DNA from: Gimibacter soli | GTDB taxonomy: Bacteria > Pseudomonadota > Alphaproteobacteria > Sphingomonadales > Kordiimonadaceae | Direction: 5' to 3' | DNA length: 64,000 nt | Assembly (NCBI RefSeq): GCF_028463845.1 | Contig: NZ_CP116805.1 | Coordinates: 1,054,001-1,118,000, forward strand | Part shown: piece after piece, positions 48,445 to 52,197 of the stretch | Layout: each line of letters opens with the position of its first letter | Numbering within the stretch: position 1 is the first letter of the stretch | Translations under genes and position numbers: made by a program | Notes under the pieces: model-generated | Databases searched by the model: none | What the model was told of the DNA's origin: nothing | Seen by the model: only the letters and a program-made list of their open reading frames with translations

Positions 48445-48471
48445 GTGGAACAAGCACCGGAACAGCCCCTT

Positions 48472-49299
48472 ATGCTCAGCACCTTCACGCCCGCTTCGCC
48501 CCTTCTCCTTGTCGGCTTCGGCAATATGGGCCGCGCGATGGTGGATGGATGGCTGCGTGCCGGACTTGATGCTGCCGCCCTTCATGTGATTGATCCGGTT
48601 TTCGCCGCGGCACCCGCGGGTGAACTGGTGGCGCACACCTATGCGGCGGCAAGCGAAGTGCCGGAAATCACCCCGCGTGCCCTGATGGTCGCGGTGAAGC
48701 CGCAAGCGATGGAACATGTGCTGCCGGGCCTCGCCCGTTTTGTGGGCGATGAGACGCTGGTCCTTTCGATTGCGGCGGGCGTAAAGATCGCGACCTTCGC
48801 CGAAGCCTTCGGGGCTGACTGCGCCATCGTCCGCACCATGCCAAACACCCCTGCCGCGATTGGCGAAGGGGTCAGCGGCCTTTGTGCGTCGACAGGCGTC
48901 ACGGACGAGGACAAAGCCCTCGCCGAAGCCCTGATGGCAGCGGCGGGCCAAACGGTATGGGTTGCCGATGAAGCGCTGATGGACAGCGTGACGGCGGTCT
49001 CGGGCAGTGGCCCGGCCTATGTCTTCCATTTCGTTGAGGCGCTGGCAGCCGCCGCCGAGCGCGAAGGCTTCGACCCCGAAACCGCCATGACGCTCGCCCG
49101 GCAAACCGTGATCGGTGCGGCGGCCCTGATGAAGGCACAGGCCGATGTGCCTGCCGCTACGCTCCGTGAGCGGGTGACGAGCCCCGGGGGCACCACAGCC
49201 GCCGCCCTTGGCGTGCTGATGCCTGAAGCCGGGCTCACCGGCCTTTTGACCCGTGCCGTGGAAGCCGCCCGCAAACGCGGCGAAGAACTCGGCGGCTGA
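48472..49299 (+). CDS. proC: pyrroline-5-carboxylate reductase
   Basis: The last step of proline synthesis, reducing pyrroline-5-carboxylate with NAD(P)H. About 275 residues. The N-terminal Rossmann motif is LLLVGFGNMGRAMVDGWL, then VRTMPNTPAAIGEGVSG and the C-terminal VSGSGPAYVFHFVEAL and ERVTSPGGTTAAAL, which are the P5C reductase signatures. I prefer ATG 48472; a GTG at 48445 is in frame but lies directly on the terminator tail and has no ribosome site. The leader at 48307-48444 lies just before it. Confidence 0.94.
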   Translation: MLSTFTPASPLLLVGFGNMGRAMVDGWLRAGLDAAALHVIDPVFAAAPAGELVAHTYAAASEVPEITPRALMVAVKPQAMEHVLPGLARFVGDETLVLSIAAGVKIATFAEAFGADCAIVRTMPNTPAAIGEGVSGLCASTGVTDEDKALAEALMAAAGQTVWVADEALMDSVTAVSGSGPAYVFHFVEALAAAAEREGFDPETAMTLARQTVIGAAALMKAQADVPAATLRERVTSPGGTTAAALGVLMPEAGLTGLLTRAVEAARKRGEELGG

Positions 49300-49335: not shown

Positions 49336-49545
49336 AAAAAAATCGGGCCCGGAAATCCGGGCCCGTACAGGGAGAATTGGGAGGTAAATCAGAGTATCTC
49401 GATCTTGGATTTGAATGCTGGTCCCGGGAGGGAAGTGGGGGGGAGGGGAGGGTTCCCGGGACCAGCTTTCATGACGGAGGCATCACTGACGCCGTCAAAC
49501 TTTTAGGTGCGGTGCACTCACTTGCGTATTGCGCCGCAGCACTTG
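49336..49545 (-). ncRNA. candidate small RNA with anti-Shine-Dalgarno-like C-rich elements
   Basis: Read on the minus strand after the LysR gene, three C-rich stretches occur: GCCTCCGTC (about 49472-49480), the 24-nt loop (49430-49453) of a perfect 13-bp hairpin (49454-49466 with 49417-49429) holding ACCCTCCCCTCCCCCCC, and TTACCTCCCAATTCTCCC (about 49369-49386). A 9-bp terminator hairpin (49344-49352 with 49357-49365) and a T-run (49336-49342) end it. The layout resembles alphaproteobacterial CCUCC-loop (cuckoo/CcsR-type) small RNAs. The 5' end is a guess; it may be cut from the LysR 3' UTR. Confidence 0.45.
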
Positions 49546-49684
49546 AGACGGGTTATACGCAGGCGCAGCGAAACCGGAAATAGTTAATTTTGCGATCCAG
49601 ATATGCGTTAAACGCATGGCTCAGGCGCAGAGATATTAAATTTTTGTTTAAGTGTCCAGCGCTGTCATAAAATTGCGCAAAGAC

Positions 49685-50578
49685 CTACAGAATGTTGCTG
49701 GCATCGCGAATCTGGCGGATCATGAAGTCCCGGAAAAGGGCGACTTTCACCGAACTTTTTCGCTCCGGCGGGTAGCAATAATAGCTGTTGAAGCTGGTTC
49801 CCTCGACATCCGGCAGCACGCGGACGAGCTTTTTGCGGTCGTGAACCAGATAATCGGGCAGCACGCCGATGCCCATGCCGGCTTCCACCGCATGCAGCAC
49901 ACCAAGGAGGTTGTTGATCAGCAGCCGCGGCTGGCGGCGATGCGGGCCGGCACCCACGTCCAGAATCCAGTTCAGGCCGCGAATGGTCGGCGCCGTGGTG
50001 TTGCCGATGGTGATCAGGTCGTGCTGGTCCAGGTCCTTGGCGGTCACCGGCGTGCCGCGCTTGTCCAGATATTCGGGGCTTGCATAGATATGCGCATGGA
50101 AGGTGGCGAGCGGCCGGGCAATCAGTTCGGCCTGTTCAGGCTCGTGCAGGCGGATTGCCACGTCCGCCTCACCGGCCGCGAGGTCAAGATCGCGGTCATC
50201 GAGCGTCAGCTCGATGCGAATTTCGGGATATTCGGCCATGAACTGCGTCAGATGCGGGGTCAGCCACACCGAGCCGAAGGTGACCATGGTCGTCACCCGA
50301 AGCACCCCGGTGGGGCGCTGGCGCGATTCCATGATGGCGCGTTCGGTATTGTCGATCTGCTGCACCACGGCACGCGCGGTCTGATAGAGCTGCAGGCCTT
50401 CTTCGGTCAGCACCAGCCCGCGGGCGTGGCGGGTGAACAGGGAGACATTGAGGCTTTCCTCAAGTGCGCGAATCTGGCGGCTGACAGCTGACTGGCTGAG
50501 CTTCAGGCGTGCGCCGGCGCTCGTGAAGCTGCCGCATTCGGCAACCGTGTGGAAAATCCGCAGTCTGTCCCAGTCCAT
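49685..50578 (-). CDS. LysR-family regulator
   Basis: A 297-residue LysR protein. It starts MDWDRLRIFHTVAECGSFTS with the helix-turn-helix LSQSAVSRQIRALEESLNVS, then the effector domain (VLRVTTMVTFGSVWLTPHLTQ, from about 90). GGGAGGAC lies 4 nt before the ATG at 50578. It neighbours trxB, as in many alphaproteobacteria. Its stop is followed by an unusually long tract on the same strand with C-rich hairpins and a terminator. Target genes are not known; a redox role is suggested only by trxB nearby. Confidence 0.88.
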   Translation of the reverse strand: MDWDRLRIFHTVAECGSFTSAGARLKLSQSAVSRQIRALEESLNVSLFTRHARGLVLTEEGLQLYQTARAVVQQIDNTERAIMESRQRPTGVLRVTTMVTFGSVWLTPHLTQFMAEYPEIRIELTLDDRDLDLAAGEADVAIRLHEPEQAELIARPLATFHAHIYASPEYLDKRGTPVTAKDLDQHDLITIGNTTAPTIRGLNWILDVGAGPHRRQPRLLINNLLGVLHAVEAGMGIGVLPDYLVHDRKKLVRVLPDVEGTSFNSYYCYPPERKSSVKVALFRDFMIRQIRDASNIL

Positions 50579-50715
50579 TCTGTCCTCCCGATAGGCCGGA
50601 CGATGCCACCCTGTGCGCGGGTGTGCAAGCGATAGCGCGCTCACGGCTTGGCAGAAGGCCCGGAAATCTTTAGATTCGAAGGAGTTTCGTGTATCCGGGG
50701 CGGGGAGGCAATGCC

Positions 50716-51021
50716 ATGTCGGACCGTGAAATGCTGAAGCAGGCGAGCGGCTTTTTCAAAAGCCATTATCCCGGCCTGATGCCCGAGGCCATTGTCGCCT
50801 TCCTTTTCATTGCCGGATCGGAAAAACAGCTGACCGTGGGGGATGTTGCCCGCGCACTCGGGATGACAGAACCCGATGCTTACAAGCATATCTCCCATCT
50901 CGCCGTCGGGCGCGGGGCCGGGCTTGTCCAGCTCGCCAATCTGGGCGAGGGCCGCAATGGCATTTCGCTCACTGAAACCGGCATGACGGCGCGGGCGGAT
51001 ATTCTGGAAAAGATGGGTTGA
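50716..51021 (+). CDS. small winged-helix (MarR-like) protein
   Basis: A 101-residue protein with the features of a small winged-helix regulator: FFKSHYPGLMPEAIVAFLFIAG (N-terminal helices), LTVGDVARALGMTEPDAYKHISHLA (recognition helix) and GISLTETGMTARADILE (wing and end). It has no extra ligand domain. GGGGAGGCAA precedes the ATG at 50716; an ATG at 50689 is possible. It is divergent from the LysR gene and convergent with trxB. No target can be read. Confidence 0.7.
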   Translation: MSDREMLKQASGFFKSHYPGLMPEAIVAFLFIAGSEKQLTVGDVARALGMTEPDAYKHISHLAVGRGAGLVQLANLGEGRNGISLTETGMTARADILEKMG

Positions 51022-51079: not shown

Positions 51080-52027
51080 TCAGTGGCTGATGCCAGCCAG
51101 ATATTTCTCGGCTTCAAGGGCAGCCATGCAACCCATGCCGGCGGCGGTGACAGCCTGACGGAAGACCTTGTCGGTCACGTCGCCCGCTGCGTAAACGCCG
51201 GGGATATCCGTCTGGGTGCTGTCCGGCTTCTTGATCAGATAGCCTTCCTCGTCCATCGGCAACTGACCTTTGAAAATCTCGGTCGAGGGCTTGTGGCCGA
51301 TGGCAACGAAAATGCCATGGACATCAAGGTCGGTCGTATCGCCGGTCTTCACATTCTTCAGCCGCGCGCCGGTTACACCAAGGGGCTCGGTGGTGCCGAC
51401 AACCTCATCCAGAACCGTGTTCCAGATGACCTCGATATTGGCGGTCTTGAACAGGCGGTCCTGCAGGATTTTCTCGGCGCGGAACTCGTCGCGGCGGTGA
51501 ATGAGCGTGACCTTCGCACAAAGATTAGAGAGGTAAAGCGCTTCTTCGACCGCGGTGTTGCCGCCGCCGATCACCAGCACTTCCTTGCCGCGATAGAAGA
51601 AGCCGTCGCAGGTGGCGCAGGCGGAAACGCCGTAGCCGTTGAATTTCTGCTCGCTCGGCAGGCCCAGCCACTTGGCTTGGGCGCCGGTTGCGATCACCAC
51701 CGTGTCTGCGGTGTAAACGGTGCCGCTGTCGCCCACGGCGCGTTTCGGCGTGGCCTTCAGGTCAACCTCGGTGATCAGGTCATAAATGATCTCGGTGCCC
51801 ACATGCTCGGCCTGCGCGCGCATGGCTTCCATCAGTTCGGGGCCCTGAACGGCGCTCGCGAAACCGGGGAAGTTTTCCACATCGGTCGTGGTGGTGAGCT
51901 GTCCGCCGGCCTGCATGCCGGTAACCATCAGGGGCGAAAGGTTTGCGCGGGCCGCATAAATGGCGGCGGTATAGCCGGCGGGGCCCGACCCGATGATCAG
52001 CATCTTGCTATGCTTGGCGTTGCTCAT
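51080..52027 (-). CDS. trxB: thioredoxin reductase
   Basis: It reduces thioredoxin with NADPH. 315 residues. The FAD-binding [20 protein letters not shown] is near the start, the redox pair is CATC in [17 protein letters not shown], the NADPH motif is [19 protein letters not shown], and [31 protein letters not shown] is the C-terminal FAD motif. AAGGAGG lies 5 nt before the ATG at 52027; the frame extends to 52084 but without a better site. Confidence 0.97.
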
Positions 52028-52197
52028 AGTGCCTCCTTGGAATTTGCTGATGTTTACATAGCGACAGCACCCCGCCTTTGCCAATGGGGAAAGACGATCA
52101 TCTTGATCGATTGCGCCAATCAGAGGCAGGCAATTGCAAAAGACCTGACAAAAGCAGCGCCGTTTTTTAAACTATAGCGAGCGAGGGAGGAGTATCC

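Follow-up and report, generated by a model that had tools for sequence, protein, structure and literature searches.

A candidate anti-Shine-Dalgarno small RNA gene beside an LsrB/VtlR-type regulator in Gimibacter soli and its counterparts in Alphaproteobacteria

Gene neighborhood of the RNA locus

The window (the whole stretch of 64,000 nucleotides analyzed here) carries a predicted small RNA gene on the minus strand (49336..49545). It follows a LysR-type regulator gene on the same strand (49685..50578) and faces the convergent proC, which lies downstream of the RNA (48445..49299, plus strand; TIGR00112 above cutoff). Upstream of lysR lies the thioredoxin reductase gene trxB (51080..52042, minus strand; TIGR01292, 414.6 bits against a cutoff of 343), the same order as in the trxB-lsrB operon of rhizobia (PMC11975290). 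The product of a divergent gene between lysR and trxB (50689-51021, plus strand) has 110 aa, and its N-terminal part shows weak PF0610-like similarity.

The LysR protein contains the Pfam domains HTH_1 and LysR_substrate, and its closest solved relative is A. tumefaciens LsrB (9hh1; residues 1-292, E 1.8e-80), with the next entry at 1.1e-34. Judging by these sequence matches, we take it as an LsrB/VtlR ortholog. Its Cys268 aligns with C273 of LsrB, and the position of C144 is occupied by Val. The counterpart in Pseudokordiimonas caeni (Kordiimonadales) is 99% identical.

Predicted fold and C-rich elements

The primary transcript is predicted to be ~210 nt long, with a predicted 5′ end, and the RNA gene is supported by a conserved box and -10 element upstream and by a hairpin and a terminator conserved in Kordiimonadaceae. 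The sequence-only reading had described a 13-bp hairpin, a 24-nt loop, a terminator and a TATAAC on this strand, and all of them were found where it had placed them. These elements (minus strand, 49545-49336) are real and beyond chance: the 216-nt minus strand folds with an energy of -86.8 kcal/mol, compared with a mean of -61.2 (sd 4.1) for 200 dinucleotide shuffles (z = -6.2), none of which was as low (0/200).

All the elements of the fold lie on the minus strand. The 5′ hairpin SL1 (49508..49538) was predicted by folding, and 5′ hairpins are also found in relatives. It is followed by SL2, a small TGACGG...CCGTCA hairpin (49472..49497), and by SL3 (49417..49466), whose perfect 13-bp stem GCTGGTCCCGGGA/TCCCGGGACCAGC (49466-49454 with 49429-49417) encloses the 24-nt C-rich loop ACCCTCCCCTCCCCCCCACTTCCC (49453-49430). 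The stretch 5′ of SL3 reads GCCTCCGTC, and the one 3′ of it TTACCTCCCAATTCTCCC. A single-stranded anti-Shine-Dalgarno (anti-SD) element, ACCUCCCAAUUCUCCC (49370..49385; unpaired probability 0.92-0.96), lies toward the 3′ end, where CUCCCA occurs (49383-49378), and the homologous position is matched by the class model R1 described below. The gene ends in an intrinsic terminator (49336..49365) with a 9-bp stem that is all G-C (49365-49344) and a T7 tail reaching 49336.

Three C-rich elements had been proposed. Two of them, the SL3 loop (unpaired probability near 1) and the 3′ CCUCCC (0.96), have comparative support. The remaining one, the first CCUCC (GCCTCCGTC), is housed in SL2, where it mostly forms the 3′ arm of the small stem, and it reads GCCACCGTC in the sister species and is hence non-conserved. 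One Kordiimonas subclade (L089-L091, L095, L104) has a weakened 3′ CCUCCC.

A conserved promoter with an LsrB/VtlR-type box

Upstream of the RNA, an LsrB/VtlR-type box was predicted by sequence match (ATGCGTTTAACGCATATCTG, an ATGC-N7-GCAT-NNCTG palindrome; 49598..49617, minus strand). TATAAC (49552..49557, minus strand) had been put forward as one possible -10, and this proposal is strengthened by the relatives, in which its spacing of +60/61 from the box start is fixed. From this class-wide spacing of 60-61 nt, the transcription start is predicted near 49545.

The pattern ATGC-N7-GCAT was present within 900 nt after the LysR stop codon in 50 of 122 distinct loci, where 3.8 would be expected by chance, and in 3/122 when the regions upstream of the same LysR genes were used as a control. 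The alignment of 51 boxes, in which the columns outside the ATGC and GCAT anchors were free, i.e., unforced by the search pattern, gave the consensus AGCYATGC-N7-GCATRGCTGNNYTG, whose right half corresponds to the VtlR box as published (GCAT-N3-TG-N3-T; PMC7486931). The final T of the VtlR box is present in 39/51 of them, and the window box deviates from the consensus by a C that replaces the last T. The commonest -10 position is 60-61 nt past the box start, which places the GCAT half near -61 and matches the site bound by LsrB on S. meliloti abcR1 (-61 to -49; PMC8844928).

With the CTG included, the box has three exact matches in the whole genome, against none for the reversed pattern, and one of the two other matches falls within a reading frame. 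A second LsrB-type box (G000 C1:2967729-2967748, L278) is kept in the sister species (G001 C4:59336-59355, L279); it lies just beyond the 3′ end of a multi-pass membrane protein gene, with no obvious start of a further regulated transcript.

Conservation of SL3 and linkage to lysR in Kordiimonadaceae

All of the 17 sequences compared fold into a stem of 12-18 bp that closes a C-rich loop 23-27 nt long, and the CCCCCACUUC portion of the loop is nearly invariant among these 17 species. Over the 12 stem pairs counted, 99.5% of the cells were paired, compared with 88.2% after shuffling and at most 57% in slid controls. Both-side changes were observed in 9 of the 12 pairs, and no shuffle attained any of these measures.

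We then used R2, a model of the C-rich SL3 hairpin, with a strong match defined as at least 46 bits. This search of related genomes with a locus-built model, which had been recommended, returned one strong locus each in 25 of 30 Kordiimonadaceae genomes, so that the relatives do keep the stem and the C-rich loop. A weaker match in G008 (34 bits) brings the total to 26 loci. All but one of these (25/26) share contig and strand with lysR and lie 194-4483 nt downstream of it; nine of the 26 R2-positive genomes were outside the training of the model, and the linkage to lysR holds in eight of the nine. With the near-invariant loop, the covarying stem and the R2 matches, the proposal of a candidate C-rich, anti-SD-type RNA on the minus strand is supported. 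No strong R2 match was obtained in the other families of the order that were searched, indicating that the SL3 hairpin is an elaboration of Kordiimonadaceae. It is extremely improbable that the locus merely holds a terminator beside a chance pyrimidine-rich hairpin and lacks any small RNA function, as the compensatory changes, the 25/26 linked loci and the conserved promoter all argue against it.

In many Kordiimonas genomes, another gene occupies the region directly 3′ of lysR, and R1 together with a motif scan then located the box-promoter-RNA unit farther downstream; in most Kordiimonas genomes, this unit is 1.9-4.5 kb from lysR. In L096, an opposite-strand gene of 577 aa lies between lysR and the RNA, which is a strong argument against an origin from the lysR 3′ UTR there. 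Such an origin had been suggested for the window RNA; it would then be a fragment processed from the lysR mRNA, much as R. sphaeroides SorX derives from an ompR-like mRNA. The RNA of the window does lie behind lysR at a distance of no more than 150 nt, on the same strand, and no terminator was found between the two. However, the conserved box and -10 at a fixed spacing indicate a promoter of its own, and together with the distant Kordiimonas units and the gene order of L096, they make a 3′-UTR product very unlikely.

Related RNAs beside the regulator across the class

Outside Kordiimonadaceae, the RNA that follows the LsrB-type LysR is made up of a 5′ hairpin, C-rich hairpins that vary, and a terminator, which in many loci is preceded by ACGTCTCCCAGACGTGAAGCCTCCCTGTT. 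The model R1, built from the class-wide LysR-linked RNAs with Kordiimonadaceae excluded, reached at least 40 bits in 79 of the 193 class genomes. Among the 71 genomes with such a match and a LysR (E up to 1e-70), the match was adjacent to the LysR gene in 66, at a median of 225 nt, and the 3′ module thus adjoins an LsrB-type LysR in 66 of the 193 sampled alphaproteobacterial genomes. Eight class genomes have R1 matches of at least 40 bits and no LysR match at E 1e-70 (G063, G068, G076, G165, G190, G232, G234 and G236), and G232 has four such R1 matches.

Of the 17 Kordiimonadaceae loci searched, 13 gave an R1 match at the 3′ end of the RNA, with scores reaching 26.5 bits. On the window RNA, its best match in the window, R1 scores 12.6 bits (E 0.023); given this low score, it is the linkage, the box and the Kordiimonas intermediates (22-27 bits) that support kinship between the 3′ part and the class family. 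RNAalifold recovered only the terminator from the class alignment, probably because the upstream stem was aligned out of register. No description of this class-wide pairing of regulator and RNA was found in the open literature searched, the coverage of which was incomplete.

All seven named Rhodobacterales loci checked, and likewise three further genomes, have a SorX/SorY-like RNA at the LysR-adjacent position. At these ten loci, SorX exceeds its Rfam cutoff in three, and SorY scores 33-64 bits, under its cutoff of 111 bits. In L222, L223 and L137, a SorX match above cutoff immediately follows the LsrB-type LysR, although SorX of R. sphaeroides is described as coming from the 3′ UTR of a gene resembling ompR.

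Comparison with known small RNAs

No Rfam family matched at the gathering threshold across the whole window or in 20 class loci, and the suggested covariance search with Rfam models (AbcR/ar15, mmgR, SorX/SorY and CcsR) accordingly assigned the RNA to none of them. The AbcR model RF02345 had no match above cutoff in the 193 class genomes; against the 40-bit criterion, its best score in the window's genome was 17 bits, away from the RNA locus.

AbcR1 and AbcR2 (alphar15, RF02345) of Sinorhizobium, Agrobacterium and Brucella have the C-rich anti-SD elements UCCUCCC and CUCCCA and an intrinsic terminator (PMC8844928, PMC3712013, PMC5461406). The window RNA shares C-rich anti-SD elements and an intrinsic terminator with them. 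It is adjacent to an lsrB/vtlR ortholog and has a predicted upstream box that agrees in sequence and spacing; abcR1 of S. meliloti also adjoins lsrB/vtlR and has its box at about -61. The arrangement, which the sequence-only reading had not matched to a known one, has a precedent in the lsrB-abcR1 layout of Sinorhizobium. In contrast to AbcR, the window RNA is ~210 nt long instead of 114-121 nt and has the 13-bp hairpin with its 24-nt C-rich loop, and only one of the two AbcR motifs is found in it (M1 CUCCCA present, M2 GUUCCC absent). A further characteristic of AbcR RNAs is that they repress ABC-transporter mRNAs together with Hfq.

The models of SorX (RF02784) and SorY (RF02651) gave 12.0 and 13.1 bits on the window RNA, compared with cutoffs of 46.6 and 111. 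The Rhodobacterales SorX/SorY-like RNAs sit directly downstream of the orthologous LysR, as the window RNA does, this position being a linkage from the present analysis and not part of a published definition, and the CCUCCCU module before the terminator is common to the class-wide set. SorY is transcribed from its own promoter (PMC6238624). The window RNA differs in being longer and in carrying the SL3 hairpin. By analogy, it would work like AbcR1 or SorY, yet by score it is a member of neither Rfam family.

The best weak Rfam match to the 3′ part of the RNA was mmgR/suhB (21.5 bits), and the alphaR8 family (mmgR/SisA, RF00519) has a single-stranded CCUCCC core upstream of the terminator as well, so that the RNA might be regarded as a divergent duplicate of alphaR8 and not as an AbcR/SorX-type RNA. 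We consider this very unlikely: the score falls short of the cutoff of 41 bits, a separate alphaR8 RNA is encoded elsewhere in the genome (G000 C1:989646-989720, 58.8 bits), and the window RNA has an additional C-rich hairpin, an LsrB box and different neighbors, lysR and proC, with no N-formylglutamate amidohydrolase (FGase) gene beside it.

The C-rich CCUCC loops are also reminiscent of CcsR/cuckoo RNAs (RF02791), to which the RNA had been compared. This kinship did not hold up, as CcsR1 was absent among the 17 Rfam matches up to E 10 in the window and the RNA is not part of a ccaF1 (DUF1127) transcript: no ccaF1 lies beside it, and the upstream gene is lysR.

Target search and coding potential

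The loop complement GAAGTGGGGG occurs exactly five times in the genome, one occurrence being the RNA gene itself, compared with 16 for the reversed control. At one site, the match covers the ribosome site of a serine hydrolase gene (PF00144; G000 C1:1165231; 12 nt complementary), and this mRNA was rejected as too weak a target, since only 8 of the 12 nt are kept in the sister species. With four sites besides the RNA gene, fewer than in the control, the GAAGTGGGGG search of the genome gave no defensible target.

The near invariance of CCCCCACUUC in 17 species exceeds the specificity that an anti-SD needs, which could point to a sponge-type RNA that uses its long C-rich loop to capture a single G-rich RNA and not many Shine-Dalgarno sites. 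Elsewhere, small RNAs bearing CCUCCC are known to partner with a sponge RNA (SisA-D and CrfA; PMC12559287). However, the few GAAGTGGGGG occurrences relative to the reversed control, and the fact that no conserved partner RNA was seen, make this quite unlikely.

A peptide of 27 codons through SL3 (ATGAAAGCTGGTCCC...) was rejected, as only the window genus has its ATG and relatives read CATAAAGG or similar.

Proposed mechanism and significance

The locus combines a conserved promoter architecture, a covarying hairpin, a terminator, linkage to the regulator and a class-wide distribution. We consider it best explained (probability about 0.77) as a stand-alone gene for a trans-acting small RNA of ~210 nt with its own promoter, probably activated by LsrB/VtlR, whose C-rich elements likely repress through Shine-Dalgarno pairing. 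The adjacent LsrB/VtlR-type LysR would probably bind and activate the promoter from the palindromic box, with the GCAT half starting near -61, as LsrB/VtlR directly activates AbcR1 (PMC7486931, PMC8844928). Once transcribed, the RNA may use Hfq, and its SL3 loop and 3′ CCUCCC would likely pair with the Shine-Dalgarno regions of target mRNAs, blocking translation and promoting decay. AbcR RNAs pair with transporter mRNAs via CUCCCA and GUUCCC motifs (PMC5461406), SorY lowers the malate transporter takP, and SorX lowers a polyamine transporter (PMC8307010, PMC6238624). A regulator that senses redox state could similarly adjust uptake and metabolism through the window RNA, as AbcR1 and SorX/SorY do.

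More interesting than the window RNA alone is that one regulator is paired with anti-SD RNAs across the class. This pairing carries the LsrB-small RNA circuit beyond the few host-associated Rhizobiales in which it was known, to most of the sampled alphaproteobacteria that have the regulator, and it ties AbcR and SorX/SorY, stress RNAs that have been studied separately, to the same neighboring regulator. The class-wide pairing predicts that Rhodobacterales SorY-type RNAs should respond to the neighboring LsrB ortholog. We would give even odds to the broader idea that LsrB/VtlR in Alphaproteobacteria has, as its ancestral and most conserved role, the activation of an adjacent anti-SD small RNA. 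A single module, arisen through common descent or repeated recruitment, would then comprise AbcR1 and SorX/SorY together with the uncatalogued RNAs of Kordiimonadales, Rhodospirillales and relatives, and lineage-specific hairpins such as SL3 would alter the choice of targets. Most of the LsrB-linked RNAs, including that of the window, are under the Rfam cutoffs and are therefore missed by current genome annotation.

Multiple copies of the linked RNAs

L043, L047 and L084 carry the LsrB-linked RNA in tandem, every copy having a box of its own, and these sibling RNAs resemble AbcR1/2, which are likewise tandem. Tandem copies were also seen on contig C1 of G182 (near 3175643-3176245). In G042 (L041), a transposase-like sequence directly follows the LysR gene, with one RNA copy surviving ~1.3 kb downstream and another located elsewhere (C1:2576420).
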